From the IMG/VR virus record IMGVR_UViG_3300028920_000039, positions 62,001-126,000 of that record: DNA of 64,000 nt. One strand, given 5' to 3'. The stretch's first letter is position 1. The number at the start of each line of letters is the position of its first letter. Below, piece after piece: positions 24,038-36,468 of the stretch. The translations under genes were made by a program, and so were the position numbers. The DNA is from a virus. Under the pieces are notes generated by a model. It was not told the origin of the DNA. It was given only the letters and a program-made list of their open reading frames with translations, and searched no databases.

Positions 24038-24766
24038 ATGGACCTCTATCGTTTACTACCTGAAATCATCAGGGCTAGGGATCGCCTAGCCAGTGGTGTT
24101 GGTCTGAACCTGGACGATCAGGAAACGATTCTTCAGAAGATCTTCTATGCTCTTGAAGAGGAATGTGACACCACTGATGATCTGACGATAGGGCTGTCGG
24201 ATCTGTATAACTTCGACACTTGCCCTCCACAGTACTTTCCGCTCTTAGAGTTGTTCCTAGGAACCCAGTGGCCTGCAGATTGGTCTGAAGAACGGCGCAG
24301 ATTGGTGCTCTCGGCAATTGTTAAGCTGTATCATACCTCTGGACAAAGATTGAGCTGGGTGGCCGTTCTCAACCTATTTGGCCACACTGGCTTCTTTCCG
24401 TGGGAGTTGTGGAAAGAGACCATATATGAAGACTTTGACTATTCGTTGTATGGAGCTGACGACGGGTCTTATTACTATCAGTATCATGCCGCTCGGATTG
24501 ATGTTCGTAACGTCAATAGAACCCTGCTCTCCTTGACGGATGAAGAACGCCAGATATTGGAGTACTTTCGTCCTATCCATGTCTTGTTTCGGCAGGAAGG
24601 CATCAACATTCCGCCAATGGCGTCAACATGTAAGAATCAATCTTCCGACACTTTCGAAGGTGATGCCGGCTACGCTTTGGAAGAGGAGCTTTCCTTAGTG
24701 ACTGATGAATTTTCGATAGTTGAATCGTGCAGGGCAAGATGTGAAACAGCAGTGGAGCCACCTTAA
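24038..24766 (+). CDS. Baseplate wedge/tail protein I-like (P2 GpI family)
   Basis: A 242-residue protein beginning [16 protein letters not shown]. Following features are [18 protein letters not shown], a long helix, [14 protein letters not shown] and [11 protein letters not shown] near residue 190. This is the layout of phage tail protein I/T4 gp7-like wedge proteins, which connect wedge to fibres. It is clearly paralogous to the N-terminus of the next gene ([24 protein letters not shown]). It ends with a short Cys-bearing tail ([11 protein letters not shown]). Confidence 0.75.
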
Positions 24767-26574
24767 TGGATCTGTATAGGCTACTACCCGCAGTGCTTCG
24801 CTTGAAGGACTCTGCCACTAAAGGCAGTGTTTCAGAAGGCATTATCGAGCGTTTAGTGTATGCACTTGAACAGGAGAGCGACGTCACCAATGATGAGGTT
24901 GCAGGCCTGCTTGATCTGATCAACGCTGATGAGTGCGATGGTCAGTATTTGTTGTATATCTCCTTAACGCTTGGCTTCGCTGTTTCAGATACCGACACTT
25001 CCCCTACTCTTGACTTTTCTCGTTGGTTTGTCAAGAACTTGATTTCCTTCTACAAGATCAAAGGCACCCACCCGTCATGGATCAAGCAGTGGTCCTACGT
25101 CGAGAACGAGCCCACTATGCGAGCGTGGGAGCTGTGGAAGGATGAGCCATATGAGAGGGGCCCTTACTATCGATACGGCGAGGATGAAGGTGACTACTAT
25201 CAGGGTATCATCCACGCTGCTCGGTTTGATCTGTATCGGTTGGTAGCCGGCAACCCCGTCTTTTTGTCAGTACTGGAAGCATTTCCCCATGTCAATCCGA
25301 TAGAGTGGTGTCGGCCCATCCATGTACTGCTCCGGAAGAACTACTATCTGACAACCATACGTGATGCACCTGACGCTAACCTCCAGGAGGATTTGGATCT
25401 CATCGCCGCCCTGCGGTTGTTAGATGAGATGGATCCGCCGGAAGATGAACTTTTCTTAGAGGTGCTATGCATCACTTCTTGTGAAACCTATTGTGAGCAG
25501 ACCGAAGAATCCGGTTGTATGACGGGTTGTGAGGTTGGTTGCGAAATAGGCATTGAGTGGCCAGGGCCGACAGGTGATACCGGTGATACAGGAATCGGTT
25601 GTCCGGCTTGCGAAGAAGCCATTATGTATGATGAGAACCAAGGAGCTCGTATTGCACAATTTGCAGTTGAGGATGGTGCTTGTTGGGAGGAAGGTGAAGA
25701 AGTTTGCTTGATGGTGCCTATACGCGACTTCATAGGGCAAGGCGTGATCACAGACATCGCGTACATCAGCTACAACGACGTCGTGTATCCTATTCTTGAG
25801 GTGGAATTTCATGGTCCTATACCTGACTTTACGGGGTTTGCTGACATAGGCATTGATCCAGGAGATGCTGATCATGGTACAGTTTGTCACGGAATGTGCA
25901 TCTGTCCTGCTTGTGAGGAAACGGAGATTCATGACTACAGTGCCGGTGGCGGAGGTTGGGTTGAGTTCAGAGCTTACCTGCCTCATTGTTGGGGTGTTGG
26001 TGAGACTGTTTGTGTCTACATTCCTGATCTTGGATACATGATTGAAGGGGAGATCAGTGCCAGACGGTTTGATGATCCATGGACCGTGTACCGTGTAGTG
26101 TCAGGCTCTCTCGGTTCCGATCCTACCGGATATGATGCAGTTGTGTGTCATGGGATGTGTCCTCCTCAAGGTGAGACAGGCGATACGGGCAATACGGGTG
26201 GGACAGGCGATACGGGCAATACGGGTGACACAGGCGATACGGGCGTTGGGGAAACCGGTCCTACAGGTTTGCAAGCAGGTCCGACAGGAGAAACAGGTCC
26301 GGCAGGCGGCACACGTGGTCAGACGGGTCTAACAGGAGATACAGGAGATACAGGAGATGATGGTGAGGATGGTGAGGATGGTGGGACAGGCGATACGGGT
26401 GACACAGGTCCGGTTTACAATCCTACCTTGCACAGTATGGATGTTATCATCAATTTGCGCCTAGACACCAAAGACTATCAGTATCTCCCTTGTAATGTAC
26501 AAGTGATACCTGGAACAGGAACCGGCACCTGGACTACTTGGGAAACAGGAACTGGTTGCCCGGCTCCTGCTTGA
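24766..26574 (+). CDS. I-like tail protein fused to Cys modules and collagen-like region
   Basis: A 602-residue protein. Residues 1-200 are a paralogue of the preceding wedge protein. Residues 235-259 are a cysteine cluster ([18 protein letters not shown]). Residues 279-378 and 379-465 are two tandem modules, each bounded by CPACEE and CHGMC. Residues ~469-549 are a collagen-like Gly-X-Y stretch dominated by GDT, GNT and GPT triplets, then a compact C-terminal domain. This is a tail-fibre-like architecture anchored in the baseplate. Thr-rich collagen triplets in bacterial and spore proteins can be O-glycosylated, and glycosyltransferase genes start 1.5 kb downstream. Confidence 0.78.
26164..26412 (+). 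repeat. Collagen-like coding repeat with 24-bp near-identical units
   Basis: The DNA repeats units such as ACAGGCGATACGGGCAATAC in tandem, encoding Gly-Asp-Thr-Gly-Asn-Thr. Units at 26176-26260 are close to identical and could vary in number between isolates while keeping frame. Confidence 0.85.
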
Positions 26575-26578
26575 TACA

Positions 26579-27445
26579 ATGGCATACGATTCGCAGATAC
26601 GTTTAGATTACCACAAACCACTCCTTATTGATGGTAAGCCGATGTTGGAGTGTTGTTGTGATCCGTGCTATTGGCCTGTGATAGAAGATTTGTGGCCACC
26701 CAACAACTACACTCAATATGGCACCACAGCTACTCATCCTTTCTGGTGTTACGTGGATTATAGGTTCTGTGATTGGGTGAAGCTTGATGTTTATGCTGGA
26801 TCGGGATGTACAGGTTTTTTAGGAGGGGACTGGATATTCACAACTTACTCTTCTGCAACGAACTGGCTAACGATCACTGCTAGAGAAACCGTTGCACCTT
26901 TCAACCCCATTCAGTTTCCTTCTGGTACTACTATTTATTGGAAAGTTACTGCTTACAACAATTGTGGTGGCGAACATCGATTTACATTCGGACCCTGCAG
27001 AAAATGGACTTATATAGGTGATACAGGCAATGATTGCAACAACTGTGTGCCCAAATTGCCGAACAATGTCACAGTCATATTTTCCAACATGACAGGGTCA
27101 TTCACTCTTTTTCAGAACAAGAGTCCTGTAGTGTGTTCCTATACTTCATATTGTCACTGGGAGAAGGTGGGGGGAGATTTGGGGTATTTCTATGTGGGTC
27201 TTCCTCCTACAATTCCTGTAGGCAGAAGGGTTGAGGTTGATGTGGATGCAAATGGCATATGGAGAGTGTATGTGCTTCATAGTTACTCGCCTACAGGCTT
27301 GTTTTCTTGTTTCTGCCGTTGGCGCCATGGCAATCCTGGCTGTCCTTGTACCAGCCCCCCTCTAATCACGATCCCTTACAGTGCAGATCTACAGTGGTGC
27401 TCGGGCACCACAACCACTCAAGCCAACATAACGGTGGCTGTATGA
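26579..27445 (+). CDS. Cysteine-rich hypothetical tail-tip protein
   Basis: A 288-residue protein with about 25 cysteines, including CCCDPC near residue 45, CRK, CNNC and CFCRW/CPC near the C-terminus. The sequence is beta-rich (Tyr, Thr, Trp, Gly), with no signal peptide. It lies four bases after the collagen-like protein and overlaps the next gene by 4 nt. A fibre or receptor-binding role is suggested by order. The many cysteines beside a radical SAM/SPASM gene also make it a candidate substrate for peptide modification (inference). Confidence 0.65.
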   Translation: MAYDSQIRLDYHKPLLIDGKPMLECCCDPCYWPVIEDLWPPNNYTQYGTTATHPFWCYVDYRFCDWVKLDVYAGSGCTGFLGGDWIFTTYSSATNWLTITARETVAPFNPIQFPSGTTIYWKVTAYNNCGGEHRFTFGPCRKWTYIGDTGNDCNNCVPKLPNNVTVIFSNMTGSFTLFQNKSPVVCSYTSYCHWEKVGGDLGYFYVGLPPTIPVGRRVEVDVDANGIWRVYVLHSYSPTGLFSCFCRWRHGNPGCPCTSPPLITIPYSADLQWCSGTTTTQANITVAV

Positions 27446-35581: not shown

Positions 35582-36026
35582 GGAAGTGGACCATCGTTTG
35601 CGTGGTCGAATTAAGATTGTAGCTGAACATGAGGTAACCAAGGAGAAGAGGGTTATTTGTGAGCAGAATCTGGTGGTGAACGGTACTTACAGTCAGCTTT
35701 CCCGTCTGTTGTCAGGCGATCTGGTCGACAACACTATCACCAAGCTGGACTTCGGTACTGATGGCACTGCCCCTACAATTTACGAAGTAGCGCTTCAAGG
35801 TCCACTGGGCATCTGGTTGACAGTTTCCGATACCTACCCGTCAATTACGACAGTAACATTCGGAGCAACCTGGGCGTCAGATCAGGTCAACACCAATTCC
35901 ATTCGAGAAGTGGGTCTTTTCACTGAAGACAATACATTGTGTACCAGGGCGGTTTTTCAGGAAATGAAGAAGTCAGAAGGGTGGACATGGACGATCTCCT
36001 GGACGCTCTACTACACCCTTCCATAA
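35568..36026 (+). CDS. Small virion-like protein, paralogue of the next gene
   Basis: A 152-residue protein with an AAGGAG SD, overlapping the transferase by 14 nt. It shares a pattern with the next gene: NGTYSQLSRLLSGD versus NSMYTKLLRLLGGG, LDFGTDGTAP versus MQFGTGTLSP, then I-x-E-x-G/A and a closing SWT. Such proteins appear beside phage fibre genes and may be fibre or tail-tip subunits. It has no transmembrane segment and no enzyme motif. The role is inferred from context. Confidence 0.62.
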   Translation: MNVREEVDHRLRGRIKIVAEHEVTKEKRVICEQNLVVNGTYSQLSRLLSGDLVDNTITKLDFGTDGTAPTIYEVALQGPLGIWLTVSDTYPSITTVTFGATWASDQVNTNSIREVGLFTEDNTLCTRAVFQEMKKSEGWTWTISWTLYYTLP

Positions 36027-36036
36027 AGGAGATAAC

Positions 36037-36468
36037 ATGAAAGGCAAGTTTGTCCTCACTGCGATTGCTGTAGACAGCGGATATCGTCAGAAATTGGTGA
36101 AGGTTCAGAACACCATTCTTAACAGTATGTATACGAAGTTGCTTCGCCTGCTCGGCGGTGGTACAGGCTCGTCTCCTGTTGATCGTATGCAGTTCGGAAC
36201 CGGCACACTTTCACCAGCCCCCGACCAAGAATTCCTGCAGAAGCCGATCAACCCGATCAAGAATGTTACTCCAATAGTTGACGCTGCTAACTTTGAGGTG
36301 GAGTTTACCGCTGCACTCCTTTCAGATGAAGGCAACGGATTTCCGATTGGAGAAGCCGCATTGGTTTGTGCCGATGACACCCTGGTTGCCAGGTCTACTT
36401 TTGATGTCCGAACCAAGACGTCGAGTTACATATTCGACTTCTCGTGGACCGTTACGCTCAAGTCGTAA
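36037..36468 (+). CDS. Small virion-like protein, paralogue of the previous gene
   Basis: A 143-residue protein with an AAAGGAG SD, 10 nt after its paralogue. It has the same layout (N-terminal RNA/DNA-unlike beta strand, MYTKLLRLLGGGTG, FGTGTLSPAP, C-terminal FDFSWTVTLK) but low identity, so the duplication is old. It is the last gene of the structural/modification block; an inverted repeat and a sigma70 promoter follow. Confidence 0.62.
   Translation: MKGKFVLTAIAVDSGYRQKLVKVQNTILNSMYTKLLRLLGGGTGSSPVDRMQFGTGTLSPAPDQEFLQKPINPIKNVTPIVDAANFEVEFTAALLSDEGNGFPIGEAALVCADDTLVARSTFDVRTKTSSYIFDFSWTVTLKS

Follow-up and report, generated by a model that had tools for sequence, protein, structure and literature searches.

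The window analysed here comprises 64,000 nucleotides, bases 62001-126000 of the 135,046-base virus record IMGVR_UViG_3300028920_000039, and contains at 24766-36468 an operon in which putative tail-tip proteins of a phage lie together with a radical SAM (rSAM) enzyme and several glycosyltransferases (GTs). Judged from its sequence, the virus is a contractile-tailed bacteriophage: it encodes a T4-like tail sheath of 510 residues, whose best relatives are those of Bacillus phage SP-15 and Listeria phage LIS04, and its baseplate is of the gpJ type by PHROG and NCBIfam matches. The gene for gpJ, the baseplate J or wedge protein (21988..24036; phrog_219, E = 4e-47; TIGR02243, E = 3e-33), is followed by one for a gpI-like tail protein (24038..24766; Pfam Tail_P2_I, E = 2.7e-7), and the operon continues directly from these two genes without a break. 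Its genes, here called P1 to P8, overlap or abut and, like those for gpJ and gpI, all lie on the plus strand. The original prediction for this DNA had described the series as a phage system for chemical modification of its own tail tip; the tight tail-tip gene series is real, with every element present, and its gene order is found again in relatives.

We found that P1 (24766..26574) begins on the last base of the gpI gene, and that its N-terminal 244 residues are paralogous to gpI (32% identity, E = 7e-29). The gpI protein belongs with the P2 gpI-like baseplate proteins by its Tail_P2_I homology and its position after gpJ, and P1 joins it there as its paralogue. Its start on gpI's last base and its repeat of a domain of gpI length mark P1 as a second connector between baseplate and fibre, one that extends into a fibre. 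The gpI-like domain is followed by a short array of C-X3-C (CxxxC) steps (residues 235-259; 25468..25542), two repeated Cys modules of the form C-x-A-C ... CW ... VC ... CHGxC (25600..26160) and a collagen-like Gly-X-Thr stretch (residues 467-549; 26164..26412). Among the 22 Cys of P1 a spacing of four occurs six times, against 0.75 expected, and because none of 2,000 shuffles attained six, this excess is not due to chance; the original prediction had overlooked it. The array layout, C-X3-C-X3-C-X7-C-X3-C-X3-C, is kept in the P1 homologue of the relative L399 (37% identity), in which the array is followed, as in the window, by collagen repeats (GPP/GPT) and conserved CHGxC modules. The gpI protein itself ends in ...ESCRARCET, which contains one CxxxC pair.

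Two further candidate substrates follow P1. P2 (26579..27445) is Cys-rich, and P3 (27442..28047) is a small protein with 7 Cys and about 11 His; neither shows period-4 Cys spacing in the spacing test, and searches of PHROG, Pfam and NCBIfam returned no family match for either. The substrates proposed originally thus hold for the collagen-like fibre with its Cys modules and for the Cys/His protein, whereas the protein credited with about 25 Cys, P2, has 18. The position of P2 is held in relatives by non-homologous Cys-rich proteins (30 Cys in L399, 27 in G003), and P2 is possibly a distal tip or receptor-binding protein.

P5 (32332..34743) is a fusion of an rSAM/SPASM maturase with a GT9 heptosyltransferase-type domain. 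Its rSAM half (residues 82-440; 32575..33651) carries the motif CQLRCDYC (CX3CX2C) at residues 95-102, matches Pfam Radical_SAM (E = 7e-19), has SPASM Cys that align with those of CteB and shows the rSAM fold (TMt 0.76), which places it in the radical SAM/SPASM group. CteB (5wgg) is also its closest solved relative (E = 4e-87 with the family profile, which aligns to CteB from residue 11, and 2e-37 with the window sequence alone); the Cys of both the radical cluster and the auxiliary clusters of CteB are retained, and the AlphaFold model of P5 (pLDDT 81) ranks CteB first among known folds (E = 3e-24). The top NCBIfam models are the PapB, QhpD, Nif11 and SCIFF maturases, none of which reaches its curated cut-off (PapB, 194.5 of 340 bits; SCIFF, 166.5 of 425; QhpD, 188.4 of 453). 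This suggests that the P5 rSAM would work like these maturases while being assignable to no single one of them. A Cys-rich substrate gene nearby, as is typical of ranthipeptide/SCIFF systems, is present in the form of P1, four genes upstream in the same operon, and in kin the array gene is usually the direct neighbour of the rSAM gene.

Single-protein scans of IMG/VR with P5 and with P4 gave no matches, and kin were reached via the capsid protein. We found that in distant capsid relatives gpI and P1 bear long arrays at the corresponding position: in G006, two such proteins have 108 Cys in 850 residues and 74 in 493; in G007, one has 72 in 527; and in G003, two have 23 in 356 and 39 in 819. Arrays in relatives reach about 150 CxxxC pairs, and the Cys spacing is four in 1,110 of the approximately 1,440 array steps listed. 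The consensus step is C-[E 48%/Q 37%]-[T/S/V]-[G/A/S/T]; E or Q was a requirement of the pattern by which many arrays were fetched, yet it also prevails in the capsid-derived relatives, which were reached without that pattern. Synonymous codons differ along an array, which points to selection on the protein. A single-sequence AlphaFold model of one array is helical (pLDDT 70), to which we give little weight because such models favour helices.

When the arrays are masked, the remaining proteins fall into more than nine unrelated backbones, mostly of the tail, which include gpI-like, tail-tip-like and clostridial amidase-like proteins, two tail proteins of L103 and a Hoc-like head decoration protein. 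So many unrelated backbones suggest that the array is a mobile feature which travels with its enzyme. The array on the Hoc-like protein (L360:7056-8747, from the same record as L052) has an rSAM gene directly upstream, so that the modification may extend beyond tails. Elsewhere, L038 (G007:41045-42271) is a nearly pure CxxxC array of 408 residues with 88 Cys, distant from the tail-tip genes. In cellular genomes, most matches of the Cys pattern were rejected as DNA microsatellites with a frame that is open by chance; no more than four true arrays were found there, two of them beside an rSAM gene in clostridial prophage-like regions with tail or lysin-like neighbours. A second array type, C-[S/T/G]-G-x, occurs beside more remote rSAMs (L353-L391; for example L356:3916-5004, L374:4360-5493 and L390:3515-4789) and matches phrog_6085, a family without assigned function.

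The linkage between arrays and the rSAM was assessed from both sides. A search of viral contigs with a DNA pattern encoding five C[E/Q]xx steps yielded 120 stretches, 49 with the motif in an open frame and another 71 that serve as controls; an rSAM model built solely from the window's kin matched 13 of the former and none of the latter. In whole viral records, with a real array defined as at least five distinct consecutive tetrads (L044 and L094 were admitted with four), an rSAM is present in 19 of the 23 records with real arrays and in one of 50 pattern-matched controls, the latter a weak match (P = 1e-12 by Fisher's exact test, which is only indicative because related records are not independent). 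Three of the four array records without an rSAM stop at the array or close to it; the remaining one, L125, is microsatellite-like. Entry by the rSAM gave 80 phage loci, and an array lies within the stretches examined in 11 of the 14 closest. Among the other three, L320 and L322 end at a contig edge, and L329 has a gpI-type neighbour with four CxxxC pairs; L337, which has an array, is of the same phage type as the array-less L320, where the contig ends. On a tree built from 55 rSAMs the two array types are separate, with full support for the Gly-type branch, and array labels on this tree require 10 changes, compared with 26.6 after shuffling.

Some rSAM genes seen in these searches stand apart. 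The nearest rSAM matches include human faecal records labelled 'Bacteriophage sp. MT83...' in INPHARED (L281, L282, L284 and L285), which look like bacterial SCIFF-maturase loci with SecD/SecF-like neighbours; they are probably contamination and were set aside. The annotation of the rSAMs of Campylobacter phage CPt10 shows no link to a Cys array. At L321:3482-4606, a second, different rSAM/SPASM gene lies between the gene for a 131-Cys array protein and the main rSAM gene.

Repeats that are dense in Cys are able to coordinate metals or to form disulfides. The arrays might on that ground be metal- or cluster-binding or disulfide-bonded rods, with the rSAM modifying something else, such as a small peptide. 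We consider this unlikely, given that arrays and an rSAM of a Cys-modifying clade are linked in both directions across many unrelated backbones, that the rSAM clade matches the array type, and that the array gene directly adjoins the rSAM gene in most pairs. The combination of an rSAM with a Cys-rich precursor also follows the logic of ranthipeptides and sactipeptides, and the locus could be read as a moron cluster for a ribosomally synthesized and post-translationally modified peptide (RiPP), the array being the precursor of a diffusible antibacterial peptide. This seems highly improbable: the proteins that bear the arrays are large, contain gpI, tail-tip, Hoc-like or amidase-like regions and are encoded within tail operons, and the listed neighbours include no evident gene for an exporter or a protease, for which no dedicated search was made.

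The enzymes named in the original prediction are all present: besides the rSAM/SPASM-GT9 fusion, the operon encodes a multi-GT/methyltransferase protein (P4) and a further GT (P6). The GT9 domain of P5 (residues 475-790; 33754..34701) matches the Pfam family above its cut-off (E = 4e-8), and its fold matches 3tov, WaaF and WaaC. Four C-terminal Cys form a conserved motif in the alignment of this domain; similar Cys motifs also occur in GT9 enzymes of lipopolysaccharide (LPS) synthesis. One protein combines the rSAM and GT9 in L399 as in the window, and in L322 the rSAM C-terminus is fused to GT9, with the frame broken upstream; they are separate neighbouring genes in other relatives. P4 (28076..32362) has a weak N-terminal GT42/MptE-like stretch, four diverged GT8-like tandem repeats (27-36% mutual identity, each with a DxD-like motif) and a C-terminal Methyltransf_24 domain, and shorter homologues occupy the same place in L399 and, judged by position and the start of the sequence, in L322. 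P6 (34736..35581) is a GT-A-type GT in which D100 and D102 of the D-x-D motif are invariant across the family alignment.

Two small paralogous virion-like proteins close the operon, as had been described: P7 (35568..36026), a small tail-tip protein, and P8 (36037..36468), which share 29% identity (E = 3e-12) and both match phrog_5417. Homologues of P7 directly follow the genes at the gpJ/gpI position in phages Bise and PHB04, where there is neither array nor rSAM. In two phages a P6-type GT is in one frame with a P7/P8-type tail domain (L325:9197-10486 and L416:8908-10260). Through the fusions of rSAM with GT9 and of P6 with P7, GT9 is linked to the rSAM, and P6 to the tail tip. An acyl-carrier protein gene lies between P7 and P8 in L322 (8311-8556), a close relative of the window.

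A search entered by GT9 gave 20 contigs, several of which are near-duplicates of each other; the rSAM is next door or fused in 19 of the 20, and a CxxxC array is present in 15. Three of the five array-less contigs end just before the rSAM, which leaves L422 and L425 as true exceptions. Thus the enzymes are not widespread without Cys-rich tail neighbours, the outcome that the original prediction had called for.

GT8 and GT9 are classically families of LPS enzymes, and the GTs in the host-recognition region of pelagimyophages have been interpreted as modifying the host surface to block superinfection (PMC7029224). P4, GT9 and P6 could likewise act on host LPS or O-antigen against superinfection, with the rSAM alone acting on the tail. 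In addition to that precedent, the same genome has a second cluster of this kind at L004:9209-18575 (49.2-58.6 kb of the record, outside the window), with GTs, an FkbM methyltransferase, sulfotransferases and a DUF268 protein. Against such a role, GT9 adjoins the rSAM in nearly all contigs found, with three fusions of the two, a pair of phages encode P6 joined to a P7-type tail protein, and the genes lie between gpI and P7, which are neighbours in phages without the module; we regard a role at the host surface as somewhat unlikely.

The original prediction had the enzymes decorate fibre Thr and/or Cys, and in one version of it the main event would be O-glycosylation of the Thr of the collagen-like stretch. 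This stretch falls just short of Pfam Collagen (24.4 bits, E = 2.5e-5, against a cut-off of 27.2), with a longest perfect run of 11 triplets, and is matched by phage tail-fibre PHROGs (best E = 4e-14). The window has its collagen-like stretch in common with its two closest kin, L399 and L322, in which rSAM and GT9 are likewise fused, and TibC, a protein heptosyltransferase, is among the fold matches of GT9 (rank 33, after the LPS GT9s; E = 2e-7, about 10% identity). However, Gly-X-Thr stretches are confined to this sublineage, and their distribution does not follow that of the enzymes: relatives that have the same enzymes mostly possess Cys arrays and no collagen stretch, and tail fibres of collagen-like type are frequent in phages that lack such enzymes (phrog_5073 and others). 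We therefore think it quite doubtful that collagen Thr is the main target. Thr within Gly-X-Thr may conceivably be glycosylated, and the purpose first suggested, a change of host range or hiding of the tip, is speculation. The core idea that the enzymes modify the phage's own tail tip survives, with the Cys arrays, which the enzymes track, as the likely principal substrate in place of collagen Thr.

Which chemistry is to be expected can be gauged from the relatives of P5. PapB joins Cys to Asp (Cys-Xn-Asp, n = 0-6) and to Glu (PMC9413430), CteB forms a Cys-Thr thioether with the Thr two residues on (PMC8326336), and QhpD introduces Cys to Glu/Asp thioethers into a protein subunit, not a peptide (PMC8172795). 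As the rSAM is of a thioether type, cross-linking of Cys is the modification to which it points first. In a C-E-T-G step Glu occupies positions +1 and +5, and Thr position +2, which would provide the acceptor spacings of PapB, CteB and QhpD alike.

We consider it probable, though well short of certain, that the rSAM cross-links the Cys arrays of the tail tip, most likely by thioethers, and that the GTs glycosylate the same assembly. The window would then encode a tail-tip assembly together with its own maturation enzymes. Late in infection P5, acting as a CteB/PapB/QhpD-type rSAM/SPASM enzyme, would join Cys sulfurs in the CxxxC segments of gpI and P1 to a carbon of nearby Glu, Gln or Thr, with a loss of 2 Da per link. 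The fibre would then rise from a stalk locked by covalent, non-reducible bonds, and a ladder of thioether links which stiffens this stalk between baseplate and fibre is the most economical reading. The fused GT9 and P6, and probably P4, would then add sugar, and perhaps methyl groups, to those tail-tip proteins, and the phage might gain stalk rigidity, resistance to proteases or reductants, or altered adsorption.

These results need to be interpreted with some caution, as several points weigh against the proposal. The window's own array is short, with six Cys in P1 and one pair in gpI, and a possible RiPP recognition element of P5 is confidently modelled only as an N-terminal beta-hairpin (residues 37-50). 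The records share ancestry, which makes the counts partly dependent on one another, and some array-linked rSAMs are part of the contig-level profile A1. The targets of the GTs are read from position, co-occurrence and fusions. L425 has an rSAM and GT9 with no array within the stretch examined, L422 has GT9 alone, and GT9 is absent from several loci with array and rSAM, the clostridial ones included. GT9 would thus not be essential to the rSAM step, and glycosylation looks like an optional second layer.

Genes elsewhere in the window touch on other functions. QueC, FolE and a QueE-like protein of the 7-deazaguanine pathway are encoded at 38031-39240 and 50451-51137 and possibly serve DNA hypermodification; QueC and FolE likewise follow the module in L322, L399 and L413. 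A single tRNA-Thr gene (anticodon TGT) is found at 58598-58673.

The systems closest to the proposed one are CteB/CteA, Tte1186 and PapB/PapA, which have the same cluster Cys as P5 and an rSAM/SPASM gene beside a Cys-rich substrate; their substrates are short cellular peptides that carry a leader, whereas here they would be large tail proteins, with GT9 fused or adjacent. QhpD/QhpC, whose maturase gives the second-best NCBIfam score for P5, offers a parallel in which an rSAM places thioethers on a subunit of a larger machine, but it concerns a cellular enzyme subunit without repeated array or GT. The CXXX-repeat and Cys-every-fifth rSAM systems (TIGR04115 and NF038107) share periodic Cys and an rSAM/SPASM enzyme; they differ in their small peptide substrates, and P5 matches them weakly, far below the cut-offs (84.7 against 350 bits and 62.7 against 600 bits). 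The phage proteins of phrog_6085 are also Gly/Ser/Thr-rich Cys arrays with an rSAM clade of their own, but are built on C-[S/T/G]-G-x rather than C-[E/Q]-T-x, and GT9 was not detected in those stretches. The autotransporter heptosyltransferases TibC and Aah, which act on a protein acceptor with repeats, have a GT9-like fold with a Cys motif as in P5, although the similarity is remote and LPS heptosyltransferases match P5 better. A precedent for phage GTs acting on virion proteins exists in mycobacteriophages, whose capsid and tail proteins are glycosylated (Freeman et al. 2023, as cited in PMC12619734); it is not known to involve an rSAM or a Cys array.

In the open-licence literature, which leaves most subscription papers and preprints outside its coverage, we found no precedent for a phage tail with radical SAM, a ranthipeptide with a phage, SPASM with a virion, or phage-encoded RiPPs. 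The parts are thus of known kinds (rSAM RiPP maturases, GT9 and phage fibres), and their joint use on virion proteins is, as far as we found, apparently undescribed there; there is a fair chance that array and rSAM modification merit a class of their own. We hold it about evenly balanced whether a broader statement applies, namely that unrelated tailed phages build CxxxC-array rods into their tail tips, and once into a Hoc-like head protein, and lock them by dozens of rSAM-made thioethers, with a GT9, fused or adjacent, as an optional source of glycosylation and with at least two array/enzyme specificities. If true, this would be the first case of RiPP-type chemistry acting on structural proteins of virions and a new chemistry in virion assembly, and it would provide protein-scale substrates for peptide-stapling enzymes. 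A group of phage rSAM genes, and phrog_6085 with them, would gain a function, and the role of phage rSAM/SPASM enzymes and of tail-operon GTs would become directly testable.

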